Positions 4,162 through 22,956 of a stretch of 64,000 nucleotides of DNA are shown here, piece by piece. The stretch is from Peptococcaceae bacterium (GTDB lineage Bacteria > Bacillota > Peptococcia > Peptococcales > Peptococcaceae), in the NCBI GenBank assembly GCA_017399005.1, contig JAFQEO010000004.1, positions 62,001-126,000 of the forward strand. The letters are read 5' to 3'. The notes beneath the pieces are model-generated. The model worked only from the letters and a program-made list of their open reading frames with translations, was not told the DNA's origin and ran no database searches. Each line of letters begins with the position of its first letter. Positions within the stretch are counted from its first letter, which is position 1. The translations under genes were made by a program, and so were the position numbers.

Positions 4162-4362
4162 TGCCTTTACCTGAAAGATTCTCTTTGAACGCCTCTATAT
4201 CATATTTATGCAGCATTCACAGATTGCTTCGTCGGTGCAATTAATTTGCTTTCCAGAGTCCCGTCAGAATCCAGTCCTTTTGCCTGAGAGTTTTCGCTCT
4301 TGCACCTTCGGCGATGTGCATACAGATTTCTCCGCCACATGCTCTCCCAGATTCCTCAACCG
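4152..4362 (-). promoter_or_regulatory. Tandem glycine riboswitch
   Basis: Reading the minus strand, the first aptamer has the hallmarks CTGGGAGAGC, then CGCCGAAGGTGCAAG, then AACTCTCAGGCAAAAGGAC. A second aptamer follows with TGCACCGACGAAGCAATCTG and CTTTCAGGTAAAGGCACAG. This is the classical two-aptamer glycine riboswitch, and it precedes gcvT with a terminator between. Established behaviour is activation of the cleavage operon at high glycine. Boundaries are approximate. The remaining bases up to about 4525 hold a probable promoter region in which I could not define boxes. Confidence 0.9.
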
Positions 4363-16533: not shown

Positions 16534-17514
16534 CTATTCTTTATCAACAGCCGGGCTGGTCGCAGTTGCAATATTGTCACGCATGGAGGTATCTGCCTGT
16601 ACGTTCAGCATGTTGTAATAATCCATAACGCCCAGATTGCCGTTTCTTAACGCTTCGGCCATTGCAATCGGCACTTCTGCCTCTGCTTCTACTACACGCG
16701 CTCTCATTTCCTGAACGCGGGCTTTCATTTCCTGTTCCTGTGCAACTGCCATTGCACGGCGTTCTTCGGCTTTTGCCTGCGCAATGTTTTTATCTGCTTC
16801 TGCCTGGTCAATCTGTAATTCAGCACCGATGTTTTTACCAACATCTACGTCTGCAATATCGATGGACAGAATTTCAAAGGCTGTACCGGAGTCCAGACCT
16901 TTTGCCAGTACGGTTTTGGAGATGTTGTCCGGGTTTTCCAGCACATCTTTATGGCTTTCCGCACTACCAACGGTACTTACAATCCCTTCCCCTACACGGG
17001 CAATGATTGTTTCCTCACCGGCACCGCCGACTAAGCGGTCAATGTTTGCACGCACGGTTACACGGGCAATTGCTTTTACCTGAATCCCGTTTTTCGCCAT
17101 AGCAGCGATAACCGGAGTTTCAATTACTTTTGGTGTTACCGATACCATAACCGCTTCTTTTACATCACGGCCTGCCAGGTCAATAGCAGCCGCTCTGGAG
17201 AAGTTCAGTTCGATACCTGCACGTTCTGCCGCAATCAGCGCGTCGATAACTTTATCAACGTTACCGCCTGCCAGATAGTGCGCTTCCAGTTTGGAAGTAT
17301 CCATATCCAGACCTGCTTTGATTGCTTTAATTAACGGCATAACGATTTTGTGCGGAGGTACCCGTCTTAAACGCATACCTACCAGATTAAACAGACCTAC
17401 TTTAACACCTGCTGCCAGAGCAGAAATCCACAGGCCGATTGGTACAAATCTGAAAAATACCATCAGTAAAATCAGTACCAGTAAAATTGCAATCAGTAAT
17501 CCACCTAAACCCAT
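16534..17514 (-). CDS. floA: Flotillin-like protein FloA
   Basis: A 326-residue membrane-anchored protein that organises functional membrane microdomains. It has an N-terminal hydrophobic hairpin (residues 3-45), then the family block [20 protein letters not shown] and [19 protein letters not shown], then an Ala/Glu-rich coiled coil (about 225-290) with repeated AEA/QEM heptads. The start overlaps the stop of nfeD (TAATG), which implies coupling. The nfeD-floA pair is the classical arrangement in Bacillota. Confidence 0.95.
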
Positions 17515-18839
17515 TATTCTTGTGTCCTCCTTTTTTCAACGATAAGCCAGGTGCCGTCTTTGCGCACCACCTGTACCTCTTCGCCTTTTTCTATAAATTC
17601 CCCCGCGGTTACCACATCAATGCGTGTGCCGTCATCCAGTTCCACCGTGCCTGCAGGGCGCAGTGTGGTTGCCGCTGTGCCGTAACGGCCGATATAATCG
17701 GCATGTTCTTTGCGACCTGCAACATAACCCTCTTCTGTTGTAAGTCGTTCCCGCACAAGCAGACGGTCAAACACTTTGCTCTTACTGAACAGTTTCAGCA
17801 GAATCGGTGCTGCCACCACCATAATCAGCAGCACGATGGCCAGATATTTCAGTGCAGTGGCCATGTCCGGTGTGGTCAGGAAAATACTGCCCACAATACA
17901 GCCAATGCCGCCCACAGCAAAAATACCAAACCCCGGTATTAGAATTTCCAGAATGCATAAAATAATCCCTGCCAGGAAAAGCAGCAGGGCAAACCAGCTT
18001 GCCATACCTGCTATCATATGCCCTCCAAAATACAATGCTAAAAGTAAAATCCCGGCAACCGCCAGTATCCCGATTCCCGGTGCCAGCAGTTCAAACACCA
18101 GGCAGAGAATCCCTACAGAAAGCAGCACAGGTGCCACATTCGGGTGTGTGATAAATCTGGTGATTTTTTCAGCACCGTTCATTTCACTGTAAAACAGTTC
18201 CGCCTCATCGGCATTCAGCCAGCTCAGCAGTTCCTCCCGGCTATCCACAATCACATCGGCCATGCCTAGTTCCACAGCTTTCTGCGGTGTCAGTGTCAGC
18301 AGCTTGCCTTCCTCTACAATGCCCTCTATGGCAATATCCCGGTCTACAAACGCTTTTGCAATTTCCGGATTGCGGCCTTTATCTTCTGCAATGGCGGCAA
18401 ATTCCTCACGCCACGGCCCCAGATATTTTTCATCGGCCCGCTCACCGTTCACCAGCATCTCAGCATCACCAAGTGTACTGCCCGGCATCATGGCAATTTT
18501 ATCACAGCACATGGCAATATACGCCCCGGCCGATAACGCCTGATCTTTCACCAGCGCCACTGTTTCAATATCACAGCCGTATAAAATTCGTTTCATGTCC
18601 TGCGCCGCGTCTACACGACCGCCCGGTGTATCCAGCTCCAGAATCAGCAAATCAGCGCCTTTCTCCTCAGCCGTTGCAATGTTCCGTTCCAGATAGGACG
18701 ACAGCCCCAGTTCCACGGCATCATCCACGGTGATAATCATCACCTTCTGCGGTGCTTCATCGGCAAAAACCGCCGGTGCAAACCCCAGAAAGCAGAAACA
18801 CAGGAATACCAGTATCGCTATTTTCTTTTTCACATACAC
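17514..18839 (-). CDS. NfeD family membrane serine protease (long form)
   Basis: A 441-residue NfeD1b-type protein. A signal peptide (residues 1-26, cut near VFADEA) precedes a ClpP-like protease domain (30-220) with DTPGGRV and the catalytic-serine region [14 protein letters not shown] and GSTLGDAEM. About five membrane segments (225-370) follow, then an OB-fold NfeD domain (380-440, [19 protein letters not shown]). Long NfeD proteins cleave stomatin/flotillin-type partners, which agrees with floA immediately downstream. Confidence 0.92.
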
Positions 18840-18882: not shown

Positions 18883-20640
18883 TTAAGATATCTTCAAGAA
18901 TTGACATTTTGTGATAAATCGTTTCTGCGAGGCATCATACATCCAGCTGAAGGTTCCGCCGTAGCGGGCAGTCATGCGCTGAATCTGTGCCACCCCTTTG
19001 CCGTGCAGCTCCGCCTCTTCCTTCTGCGTTGCAAGCACACCGTTGTATACCTCCGGCGCCTGCTCGCAGCTGTTTTCCATACGAATAAGAATCGCCTGCC
19101 CGTTTTCTTCTGTTCCGGCTGTTCCTTCTGTGATATCCAGATACAGATAGGCATCCTCCCGGCTGCCGGAATGTTCAATGCCGTTATCCAGCAAATTGCC
19201 AAGCAAGGTACACAAATCATAGTCACTGATAAAATCCAGCAGTCCATCGGTGCAGTGAATCTCCACATCCATCCCCTGCCTCTGCGCCTGCTGCGCCTTC
19301 TGGTTCAGCAGAATATTCAGTATGGTGCGGCTGCTGTAGGTTTTCTGTACTGCCTGAGGCACCGCGGCTATCATCTGGTTCAGATAGGCCATGGCCTGAT
19401 TTGTCTCACCGCACTGCAAAAGCCCGGACAGACAGGCCAGATGATTGTTAAAGTCATGCCGGTAAACCCGGAAATTCTCCTCCAGTGCAGAAAGGTCTGC
19501 CAGCTGCTTTTTTATCATATCATTCAGCGGACAATCGTCCTGATGTTCTGCTCCATCTGGAGCCTTCAAAGCTTCATCCGGTTTTTCCGATGCCGGTTTA
19601 CGGAAATGATTGTAGCCCTTTTGCTCTATCGGCTGTTTCTGATCATCCTGTAACAGATATACCCCGCTTCCCGGCTCCGCAAACCCGACAATGGTCAGTT
19701 GCTTTCCTGTTTCCGCCTGATAGCGCCGGCAGATTTTATCCGCCTGTTCCGCCGCCATGGTACCCACAAGCTGATAGTCCTCACCGCCGGTCATGGCCCA
19801 TTGCAGACCATCCGCCCCCAGATATTCCGCCAGACGGGCACAGCTTTCATTTACCGGAACCTGTTCAGGCTTCAGCACGATGGAAATATTGCTCGCGGCT
19901 GCAATTTCACTGCACTCCGACACCAGCCCGTCACTGATATCGTTTAGCGCATGCAAAGCATCCCCGGCAAGCCGGTTTAATACAAGGATTTCCTCGCAGC
20001 AAGGCTCTGGCCTGCAGTGGCACTGCATCAGCTGTTCCCGGTGTTCTGCGGAAATATCCATTGTTTTATTCAATGTTTCATTCAATGGTTCATGCAGCGT
20101 TTCATCCAGCAGCAGTTCCAGCCCGGCACGGCTTCCGCCCAGAGAGCCGGTTACAAACACAGCATCGCCCGGTTCCGCATGGCTGCGCAGATGCAGATGC
20201 TGTTTTTCCACCAGCCCCAGCACCGTTACGTTGATAGCCAGCCGGTCTTTGCTGGATGTGGTATCGCCGCCGATAACATTTACACCGTACCTGCGGCAAA
20301 TCTCATCCACGCCCTGATAAAACCCCTGCCACTCCGCTACGGTGTAATCAGGCGGCAATGCAAGGGATAACAGAATATGAACCGGTTTCCCGCCCATTGC
20401 CGCCACATCGCTCAAATTCACAGCCACCGCTTTATAGCCCAGCTGCTGTGGCGTTATCCGGCTGCGGATAAAATGCACATCCTCGATTAGTAAATCACAG
20501 CTTAACACCTGATAATGCTTTTCATCAAAGGGCAGCACCGCGCAGTCATCGCCGCGGCCCAGAATTACCTGTTCCGGAGAATAAGCCGGGATATTTATTA
20601 AATCTATCAGTCCAAATTCGCCAAGCGATTGCAAATCCAC
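18883..20640 (-). CDS. Thiamine-monophosphate kinase (ThiL) fused to a GHKL histidine kinase domain
   Basis: One uninterrupted frame encodes two modules. Residues 1 to about 350 are ThiL, which phosphorylates thiamine phosphate to thiamine diphosphate (GRGDDCAVLPF, CDLLIEDVHF, VAVNLSDVAAMGG, VIGGDTTSSKD, NDISDGL). Residues about 375-585 form a cytosolic sensor-kinase core: H-box YRHDFNNHL with His395 followed by a helical SpoOB/AgrC-type dimer domain, N-box TLLGNLLDNGIEHS, and a G-box-like HGKGVAQIQRM. No membrane segment or sensor domain exists other than ThiL. The start is probably GTG at 20640 (VDLQSLGEFGLI), since AAGAAGGTGG precedes it; an ATG 17 codons upstream lacks a ribosome binding site. 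A Leu/Asn/Thr-rich insertion near residue 190 comes from short tandem duplications. ThiL is normally about 330 residues and unfused. Confidence 0.88.
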   Translation of the reverse strand: MDLQSLGEFGLIDLINIPAYSPEQVILGRGDDCAVLPFDEKHYQVLSCDLLIEDVHFIRSRITPQQLGYKAVAVNLSDVAAMGGKPVHILLSLALPPDYTVAEWQGFYQGVDEICRRYGVNVIGGDTTSSKDRLAINVTVLGLVEKQHLHLRSHAEPGDAVFVTGSLGGSRAGLELLLDETLHEPLNETLNKTMDISAEHREQLMQCHCRPEPCCEEILVLNRLAGDALHALNDISDGLVSECSEIAAASNISIVLKPEQVPVNESCARLAEYLGADGLQWAMTGGEDYQLVGTMAAEQADKICRRYQAETGKQLTIVGFAEPGSGVYLLQDDQKQPIEQKGYNHFRKPASEKPDEALKAPDGAEHQDDCPLNDMIKKQLADLSALEENFRVYRHDFNNHLACLSGLLQCGETNQAMAYLNQMIAAVPQAVQKTYSSRTILNILLNQKAQQAQRQGMDVEIHCTDGLLDFISDYDLCTLLGNLLDNGIEHSGSREDAYLYLDITEGTAGTEENGQAILIRMENSCEQAPEVYNGVLATQKEEAELHGKGVAQIQRMTARYGGTFSWMYDASQKRFITKCQFLKIS

Positions 20641-20718
20641 TGCCCCACCTTCTTTCCTGTTAACCGGCGGTTCTGCCTGCCGGTTAATCATTTCTGTTTT
20701 TACAGATTTACAGCTTCT

Positions 20719-21129
20719 CTATAAAGCAATCCGGTTTTCCCCGTTCTCAAAAGCTGTTATCATCCGTTCCAGCACATACTTCACCTTTTCTGCACTGGGG
20801 CCTCTGTTTTCCACGGCACCATCAACGCCAATCCATACACGGTTTTCCTCTTCGCCTTCCAGCCAGGTGGAGGCAAAGCCGTCCATCTGAGGCCTGTCCG
20901 CTAAACAGGAGGCTTCTGCCAGCGCCACATATTCCGTTACGCCGCTGTTGTAATAGGCCATCAGATATTTGCGAAAGGTCAGCGGCAGATGCTCCTGCTG
21001 CTGACGGCAGCTGTGCAGAATCTGTGCAAGCTGGCTTAACTGACGGTTATCCAGCACGGAGCCGTCCTGGCCTTCCTCGTCCTCCAGCTGAAAAGAACCC
21101 GATGTCTGTGTAATTTTATAAAACTCCAT
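20719..21129 (-). CDS. Uncharacterised protein after aroK
   Basis: I do not recognise this soluble, acidic protein of 136 residues (MEFYKITQTSGSFQLEDEE to ENGENRIAL). No membrane segment, signal or Cys motif is seen. The start at 21129 is chosen because GGGAG lies 10 nt upstream; it then overlaps the aroK end by 14 nt. An ATG 7 codons further up is possible. Probably cotranscribed with aroK, with the thiL fusion gene 78 nt downstream. Confidence 0.7.
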   Translation of the reverse strand: MEFYKITQTSGSFQLEDEEGQDGSVLDNRQLSQLAQILHSCRQQQEHLPLTFRKYLMAYYNSGVTEYVALAEASCLADRPQMDGFASTWLEGEEENRVWIGVDGAVENRGPSAEKVKYVLERMITAFENGENRIAL

Positions 21130-21640
21130 GCTGTTCACGCTCCCGGACATCGCAAATCATCTGTACAATCTCATCAAACGGTTTATTCGTTGTATCAATC
21201 ACAAGGTCAGCCACTCGCTCCCAGCATTCCGTATCCGCATAAAGCTGCTGCATCCTGCCTTTTTCTTTGCCGAAGCGCAGCAGCGGACGGTTCTGCTTGC
21301 GTGCCACTCGCTGCTGAATACTGTCTGCATTGGCTTTCAGGCATATCAGCATTCCCGACCGGCGTATAGCCTCCAGCCGTTCATCATACAGCTCCAGCGT
21401 GCCGCCGGTGGCAATCACACAGTTTTCTTTCTGCAACAGCTTGCACAGCACCAGTTCCTCCTCCGACTGAAAGCGGATTTTCCCGCACTTCCAGTACAGC
21501 GTCATCAGATCCAGCCCGGTTACTCTGGCCATCTCCTCATCGGTATCATAAAAATCCATATTCAGCTGCTGCGCCAGCCGCCGCCCCACAGAGCTTTTGC
21601 CGGTGCCCATAAAACCAACCAGAATTATATTGTTTGTCAT
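21116..21640 (-). CDS. aroK: Shikimate kinase
   Basis: A 174-residue P-loop kinase that makes shikimate 3-phosphate in aromatic amino-acid synthesis. It has Walker A GFMGTGKSS (residues 9-17), the shikimate-binding YDTDEEMARVTG, IATGGT (GG motif), and the lid arginine in QNRPLLRFG. The start at 21640 (MTNNIILVGF) has GGGAG 8 nt upstream. No other aro genes are nearby. Confidence 0.93.
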   Translation of the reverse strand: MTNNIILVGFMGTGKSSVGRRLAQQLNMDFYDTDEEMARVTGLDLMTLYWKCGKIRFQSEEELVLCKLLQKENCVIATGGTLELYDERLEAIRRSGMLICLKANADSIQQRVARKQNRPLLRFGKEKGRMQQLYADTECWERVADLVIDTTNKPFDEIVQMICDVREREQHGVL

Positions 21641-21674
21641 CCTATCCACTCCCAGCCAGATTGTATCCGATACG

Positions 21675-21724: not shown

Positions 21725-22072
21725 TTATGCTTCTCCTCTGGTTGGCACAATGCAGATAAATTCCAGCGGCGCATCACCGGTATTGGTGAAACAGTGCTGT
21801 TCATTGGATGGTACATAAGCGCAGGTGCCCGCTTCAATCGGATGGTCCTCCCCGGCAATCATCAGGTTCCCGGTACCGGAAATTACATAGTTAATATGCG
21901 GCCAGTCATGGGCATGTTCCGGAGAACTGCCGCCAGGTTCCACTGTCATAATACGCATAACATGATCTTCCCAGCCCTGTGCAGGTCCTACCGCAACCTG
22001 TTTTACAGTGCCGGTAGCACCGCCCGGTGTCATATCAATTTTCGGCATATCTTTTACATTTCCTACAAACAT
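21725..22072 (-). CDS. Small cupin-domain protein
   Basis: A 115-residue single-domain cupin. Motif 1 is the PEHAHDWPHINYVISGTG stretch with metal-binding His residues and Glu; motif 2 is Ala/Tyr-Val-Pro with HCFTNTGDAPLEFICIVP. The start at 22072 (MFVGNVKDMPKI) has GAGGTG 8 nt upstream. Single-cupin proteins of this size are sugar- or metal-binding or small dioxygenase-like; no function can be assigned. It lies as a single gene between spo0A and aroK. Confidence 0.85.
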   Translation of the reverse strand: MFVGNVKDMPKIDMTPGGATGTVKQVAVGPAQGWEDHVMRIMTVEPGGSSPEHAHDWPHINYVISGTGNLMIAGEDHPIEAGTCAYVPSNEQHCFTNTGDAPLEFICIVPTRGEA

Positions 22073-22149
22073 GATTATCACCTCATTTAAATATTTGTTT
22101 TTATTATAACAATATTTCCTGAGAAGATAAACAAAAATCTGTTAATAGA

Positions 22150-22956
22150 TTAATAGTCCAGTCGGATTCTGTCGGACACCATCGCAATAAATTCGGCGTT
22201 GGTCGGTTTTCCCCGTTCAAAATTGATGGTATAGCCGAAATATTCGGTCATCAGGTCCACATTGCCCCGGTCCCATGCCAGTTCAATGGCATGGCGAATG
22301 GCCCGTTCCACGCGGCTCGGCGTTGTATTATATTTTTCGGCAATTTTCGGGTACAGATCTTTTGTGATAGCGGTAAGCAGCTGCTGGTCATTCAAAATCA
22401 TCAGAATGGCATCCCGCAGATACTGATACCCTTTTACATGAGCCGGAACACCCATATCATGCAAAAGCGCTGTCACTTCCACCTCCATTGGTTTCCGTTT
22501 GCGTACAGGATACGACACATGATATGCCGCTGCGGTATCTGCCAGCGCCAGATTGCCGTTCATGCCGCCGCACTCCATAACCATCGAAGGATACAGAACG
22601 CCCACATCTTTTACACGCTCATAGATTCCCTCCAGGTCAAAGGGTTTTATTAAATAATCAACGGCGCCTTTCATCATAGCACGCTGAATCATGCTCTCAT
22701 TCAGATAGGCGGTCAGCATAACTACTTTCGGGCGTAATGGCATAGCCTGTATACGGTCCAGAACGCCAAGCCCGTCCAGACGGGGCATAATCATATCCAG
22801 CAGCACAACATCGGGCCGGTTCTGTTCTATCAGTTCCAGACAGGTCCAGCCGTCTGCTGCAATGCCAACAAGCTCTACATCGTTTTTCTCTCTGAAAAAA
22901 TTCTCCAGTACACAGGTAAAGTGCTGGTTGTCGTCGGCCAGTAAAACTTTTAACAT
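22150..22956 (-). CDS. spo0A: Sporulation master regulator Spo0A
   Basis: A 268-residue response regulator. The receiver domain (1-120) has the acidic pocket ADDN and phospho-acceptor Asp54 in LLDMIMP, switch Thr in MLTAYL, and Lys in LIKPF. The C-terminal DNA-binding domain (about 150-268) has the highly conserved HDMGVPAHVKGYQYLRDAI, TPSRVERAIRHAIE and NAEFIAMVSDR segments. The ATG at 22956 is preceded by GAGGAG. This places the organism in a spore-forming lineage, though loss of sporulation is common in gut relatives. The upstream region has one TGTCGAT sequence (around 23032) resembling a 0A box. Confidence 0.97.
   Translation of the reverse strand: MLKVLLADDNQHFTCVLENFFREKNDVELVGIAADGWTCLELIEQNRPDVVLLDMIMPRLDGLGVLDRIQAMPLRPKVVMLTAYLNESMIQRAMMKGAVDYLIKPFDLEGIYERVKDVGVLYPSMVMECGGMNGNLALADTAAAYHVSYPVRKRKPMEVEVTALLHDMGVPAHVKGYQYLRDAILMILNDQQLLTAITKDLYPKIAEKYNTTPSRVERAIRHAIELAWDRGNVDLMTEYFGYTINFERGKPTNAEFIAMVSDRIRLDY

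Follow-up and report, generated by a model that had tools for sequence, protein, structure and literature searches.

We have found, in a gut member of the family Peptococcaceae, a gene that joins a thiamine-phosphate kinase (ThiL) to a histidine kinase. It lies on the minus strand (18883..20640) of a window of 64,000 nucleotides, the whole stretch of DNA that was analysed, and judging from the sequence its product of 585 aa is a covalent join of ThiL and a soluble AgrC-like histidine kinase. The domain architecture is real, conserved and built from two known families, and it is apparently undescribed. The earlier note on this DNA knew of no such protein and, consistent with that, the open-access literature yielded no description of a ThiL-kinase protein. 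The best explanation, to which we give about an even chance of being right, is that a working ThiL is tethered to an orphan kinase/phosphatase directed to Spo0A, in a bifunctional protein that came from the fusion of operon neighbours.

The fusion gene and its surroundings

ThiL and the kinase are read in one open frame that begins at GTG 20640, our preferred start. This is the same start point as in other ThiL proteins and a good ribosome-binding sequence (AGGAAAGAAGGTGG) is found just upstream; an in-frame ATG at 20691, upstream of the GTG, is a possible alternative. The single frame had been claimed before and is borne out here, with the addition of the coding strand, absent from the earlier note: the plus-strand frame across 18883-20640 contains many stops. 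We have rejected the production of a free kinase by internal re-initiation, since the linker has no in-frame start conserved across the fused species and, in one of them (G010), no start at all. No stretch hydrophobic enough for a membrane segment is seen in the protein (the highest mean hydropathy over 19 residues is 1.23). At the locus, no Rfam match that would indicate riboswitch control of the fusion gene was found. Elsewhere in the window there is a glycine riboswitch (4262-4359, minus strand, Rfam RF00504, 57 bits), located upstream of glycine-cleavage genes.

The gene belongs to a run on the minus strand. Directly downstream, after a gap of 43 bp, are nfeD and floA (16534..18839). Upstream follow a gene whose 143-aa product matches nothing in Pfam or NCBIfam (20719..21150) and which is also upstream of the kinase gene in several relatives, an aroK-like shikimate kinase (21116..21652), a cupin protein (21725..22081) and spo0A (22150..22956), the candidate phosphorylation target. 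This last gene is 1509 bp upstream of the fusion gene, on the same strand and four genes away, with intergenic gaps of at most 78 bp. It codes for a genuine Spo0A (Spo0A_C 150.8 bits, Response_reg 90.7 bits), and the distance of 1.5 kb given earlier was correct.

The two halves of the protein

ThiL usually exists as a protein on its own, some 330 residues long, and ThiL relatives form dimers. Here the domain occupies residues 1-347 (19600..20640, minus strand) and, as had been proposed, it is complete: the match to TIGR01379 covers residues 7-346 with 307.7 bits, far above the curated cut-off of 184.15, and the half could be aligned to the solved ThiL structures (PDB 1vqv and 3c9r). The whole domain is thus like that of known ThiL, from which the protein differs in the kinase added at its C-terminus. 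The six motifs for ATP/Mg and substrate (GDDCAVL, SCDLL, LSDVAAMGG, GGDTTSS, DISDGL and GGEDYQL) are intact, and all six are present in every fused species. It is the sole ThiL match in its own genome, where ThiC, ThiD, ThiG and two ThiE-family genes are found in one de novo thiamine operon. Given the intact motifs, the single copy and the thiamine operon, the ThiL half is probably an active thiamine monophosphate kinase. Most fused species of the genus carry within ThiL a cysteine cluster, CHCxPEPCCEE (19990-20022, minus strand, residues 207-217), which is missing from the free ThiL of the order and could be metal or redox related.

A variable linker (residues 348-375, 19516..19599, minus strand) leads into the kinase half. 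This half starts with SPOB_a-type dimerisation/phosphoacceptor helices (residues 376-427, 19360..19515, minus strand; Pfam PF14689, 38.0 bits against a cut-off of 28.1) that include the predicted phospho-accepting His395 (codon 19456..19458) in the H-box YRHDFNNHL. It ends with a GHKL ATP-binding domain, HATPase_c_5 (residues 471-578, 18907..19230, minus strand; PF14501, 53.9 bits against a cut-off of 22), containing the N-box NLLDNGIEH and the G-box HGKGVAQI. The HDxxN H-box, the N-box and the GxG box come in the right order. The earlier note had assigned the three boxes and had seen a weak point in a GHKL part that might lack ATP binding or conservation. Our analysis indicates the opposite: His395, Asp396, Asn399, Asn482, Asp485, Asn486, Lys540 and Gly547/Gly549 are all present. 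These positions, which cover the conserved residues of the H-box, the N-box and the two Gly of the G-box, are among twelve that do not vary in an alignment of 44 kinases.

The structural model points to the same family. The AlphaFold modelling that had been suggested worked for the kinase half, which is predicted with confidence (pLDDT 90), and failed for the full length, where the model from 8 sequences was poor (pLDDT 53) and has been set aside. Among the matches listed for the kinase half, the best was 4bxi, the ATP-binding domain of AgrC, with Z 15.6 and an rmsd of 2.7 over 133 residues. There were no Spo0B structures among the matches listed, to which we give no weight against a likeness to Spo0B. 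By sequence too, the closest PDB match is AgrC (E 1.1e-9). With its ATP-binding motifs intact, the kinase half is by these comparisons an AgrC-like (HPK10) histidine kinase. It has in common with AgrC-type kinases with HATPase_c_5 (PDB 6e52, 4bxi) the HDxxN H-box, the N-box, the G-box and the predicted fold. Unlike AgrC, it has no membrane sensor, and ThiL occupies the sensor position; nor does an adjacent LytTR regulator accompany the gene, as in the peptide-sensing systems of AgrC, the nearest receiver being Spo0A. A phosphatase activity is possible as well, HDxxN being similar to a kinase/phosphatase motif known from other kinases.

Distribution among relatives

When the fusion was looked for in relatives, as had been proposed, it was found in six species of the present gut genus of Peptococcaceae and in one further genus. 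Five of the six are other species of the genus with full-length, stop-free fusions at 58-69% identity. The further genus of the same family (G004) is represented by two contigs that break inside the gene; one (C52) runs in a single frame from ThiL into the H-box and the other (C5) has the remainder. An artefact of assembly or a frameshift joining two genes is therefore rejected with near certainty: independent assemblies keep the same full-length frame despite different linker lengths, and beyond one relative with two genes (G001) nothing speaks in its favour.

Both halves are, from the substitution ratios, under purifying selection. In the closest pair the Ka/Ks of ThiL was about 0.17 and that of the kinase about 0.18, rough ratios since Ks was above 1, and the linker was saturated even for amino-acid changes. 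The distance between the end of ThiL and the phospho-His was 39, 40, 42, 43, 45, 45 and 49 residues in the fused species; the spacing does not vary by heptads and the linker sequence is not conserved.

Searched with a profile of the kinase, the class yielded nine orthologues, all scoring at least 184 bits; the next sequence had 112 bits. All nine belong to the family Peptococcaceae; in seven the kinase is fused, in one it is adjacent to thiL and in one it is alone. Outside the family, ThiL genes had been expected to lack the fusion, and this held in a sample of 398 genomes of the phylum: ThiL was matched in 125 of them, and outside Peptococcaceae no match extended into a kinase. One read-through ThiL match (G018) was rejected as a fusion, the match stopping at the end of ThiL and the next gene being unrelated. 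A search of genome contigs with the kinase found close relatives only in the family, with the ThiL scan covering part of the distant loci.

Separate and kinase-only forms

In other families of the order thiL is free-standing and without the kinase; in two of these genomes it comes immediately after thiamine genes (thiD, thiM). In G001, a member of another genus of the family Peptococcaceae, thiL and the gene for a 210-aa kinase are distinct, with 29 bp between them. The earlier note had thought that relatives might show two genes, with a frameshift in this assembly; the first part is true of this one relative, where it is the unfused form of another genus, and the second is not, as no frameshift is found here. 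The fusion thus reads best as having arisen from a neighbouring operon pair, thiL plus kinase.

A different situation is found in G006, of the same genus as the fusion. Here thiL is gone and the kinase, 215 aa long and beginning from a start of its own, stands alone at the same site. A distance of 97 bp separates it from the upstream gene that it shares with the relatives; the genome (76% complete) gave no ThiL match and no ThiE-family match. In the kinase tree G006 is the sister of the fused G009 (99/95), which indicates descent from a fused gene that dropped thiL and retained the kinase. Since the kinase is kept at the same site without thiL, its retained role would not require ThiL. Another genome of the phylum has, by sequence, a ThiE-ThiL fusion (L215:1985-3832). 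There ThiL is likewise joined to the product of a neighbour, and the partner is a thiamine enzyme, not a signalling kinase.

Spo0A as the candidate partner

The genome is that of a spore former by gene content (SpoIVA, SpoIIIA, SpoVT) and has 16 receivers. Its six other AgrC-like kinases each have a response regulator no more than about 4 kb away. The fusion kinase has no regulator adjacent to it, and Spo0A, four genes off, is the only receiver within about 4 kb and the sole receiver on its contig. No Spo0F-like single-domain receiver was found among the 16, and no Spo0B gene after rpmA, where spoVT is found instead; Spo0B may be encoded at an unlinked site. In clostridia without the relay, orphan kinases act directly on Spo0A, and the verified Spo0A kinases are orphans (PMC6136694, PMC11210211). 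An apparently orphan kinase whose nearest regulator, on the same strand, is Spo0A, together with the failure to find Spo0F or, at its usual locus, Spo0B, makes Spo0A the leading candidate partner. The link to Spo0A and sporulation in the earlier note stands to this extent, without the part in which ThiL drives it.

The occurrence of Spo0A across genomes was also compared. Two genomes of the family (G002 and G012) have no Spo0A match, no SpoIVA and no orthologue of the ThiL-linked kinase. In G003, SpoIVA is present, the kinase is absent and the phospho-accepting Asp of Spo0A is a Gly. The sequence there (L192) is VVLGSIMP with an altered acidic pair, and this Spo0A may work without phosphorylation. 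In the Spo0A alignment, one position of helix 1 is occupied by Glu or Asp across the order, whereas all nine genomes of the g1/g5 clade have Gln, His or Lys there. This is the clade in which the fused or derived kinase occurs (its member G011, 68% complete, is without an orthologue match). By our own mapping onto the sequence, the same position is Glu in the three species of Table 1 in PMC6136694. This change is only suggestive, being one lineage event at most, which could be unrelated to the kinase. Taken together, these comparisons agree with Spo0A as the partner but fall short of proof.

Other observations speak against Spo0A as target. In G001 spo0A is not near the thiL/kinase pair. The genome analysed here has three other receivers without an adjacent kinase, a receiver-SpoIIE-type phosphatase and two ANTAR proteins. 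The first of these (L167:2480-3987) adjoins a STAS-like antagonist. Spo0A has also a rival donor, a second soluble orphan kinase of the same genome: a 237-aa HisKA protein (L166:3194-3907, contig C19) located 14 bp upstream of spoIIIAA and the spoIIIA run. Known sporulation kinases are mostly of the HisKA type and not of the AgrC type. The specificity residues of the kinase helix, ACGLQC, taken at positions from PMC6136694 anchored on the phospho-His, were not diagnostic for Spo0A when compared with Spo0B and other kinases.

Discussion

The sequence itself shows domains that are intact and, in relatives, separable, a covalent fusion that several species have kept, purifying selection on both halves, the order of the genes and a kinase with no regulator next to it. 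Beyond this, the explanation that we prefer infers both enzymatic activities, a coupling of dimers and Spo0A as the target. Two neighbouring operon genes would have fused to give one bifunctional protein. Its N-terminal half, the only ThiL of the cell, would make thiamine pyrophosphate from thiamine monophosphate. The C-terminal half, a soluble orphan AgrC-like kinase (SPOB_a plus GHKL ATPase), would autophosphorylate on His395 and most likely transfer the phosphate to Spo0A directly, or strip it from Spo0A, in a lineage with no recognisable Spo0F/Spo0B relay. The loosely linked ThiL may aid kinase dimerisation or co-expression without being required for the role that the kinase has retained. 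The protein resembles in this the orphan Spo0A kinases (CAC0903 and CAC3319 of C. acetobutylicum, PtpC of C. difficile). These are encoded by orphan genes, a status that the fusion gene may share, with Spo0A four genes away, and they too occur in spore formers without a recognisable relay, PtpC being cytosolic as well. The fusion protein differs from them in its AgrC-like core and the lack of a PAS domain, and in that Spo0A is only its candidate target.

The separability of thiL and kinase would also fit a fusion that brings mere co-translation, with a kinase whose target is not Spo0A but another regulator, such as the receiver-SpoIIE-type phosphatase, or more than one. We regard this as unlikely. 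In its favour, other receivers of the genome are without adjacent kinases, the linkage to Spo0A is lost in G001, and ThiL joins neighbours elsewhere, as in ThiE-ThiL. Against it, Spo0A is the nearest regulator and the linkage is kept in the other genus of G004, and the kinase is missing where Spo0A was not found or has no phospho-accepting Asp (G003).

Could ThiL be the sensor? The earlier note had proposed that thiamine-phosphate or ATP status, sensed by ThiL, could drive phosphotransfer to a response regulator. In a fuller form of this idea, binding or turnover of thiamine monophosphate or ATP in the ThiL dimer would shift the kinase dimer and the supply of vitamin B1 would set the phosphorylation of Spo0A. 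The fusion is retained in at least seven species of two genera, the kinase has no other sensor domain, the region around His395 is predicted as a single long helix (model residues 12-50), as in signalling helices, and the dimers of ThiL relatives would suit such a role. Even the loss in G006 of both thiL and ThiE-family matches may mean that signal and sensor disappeared together. However, the kinase is separate in G001 and outlives the loss of thiL in G006, and its independent retention weakens the case for ThiL as the sensor. The joining segment varies, with 39-49 residues between ThiL and the His that do not change by heptads, as if the linker were unconstrained, and ThiL retains all its enzyme motifs with no sign of becoming a pure sensor. 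The proposal is not supported by these comparisons and we consider it improbable; loose tethering would be simpler than a rigid in-register signalling helix, and the evidence leans against a sensory role.

Very unlikely, too, is a role like that of Spo0B, in which the kinase half would not use ATP and would serve as a phosphotransferase linking Spo0A with another soluble kinase. The SPOB_a helices and the cytosolic location are shared with Spo0B, the free-standing forms of 210-215 aa are close to its size (192-195 aa, PMC6136694) and the genome has the second soluble orphan kinase. Nevertheless the ATP-binding motifs are intact and invariant and the predicted fold comes nearest to the ATP-binding domain of AgrC, whereas the ATPase domain of Spo0B is degenerate and does not bind ATP. 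Such a relay would also need a Spo0F-like receiver, of which none was seen, and the fusion gene lies away from the rpmA-obg site of Spo0B.

The sensor regions of Spo0A kinases are diverse in the many uncultured clostridial families. Should ThiL regulate the kinase of the fusion, a metabolic enzyme would be wired straight into a developmental switch; if it is the sensor, the supply of a cofactor would be read directly into the decision to sporulate. As the kinase occurs in nature joined to ThiL, beside it and without it, the question of an enzyme as sensor can be tested by comparison.
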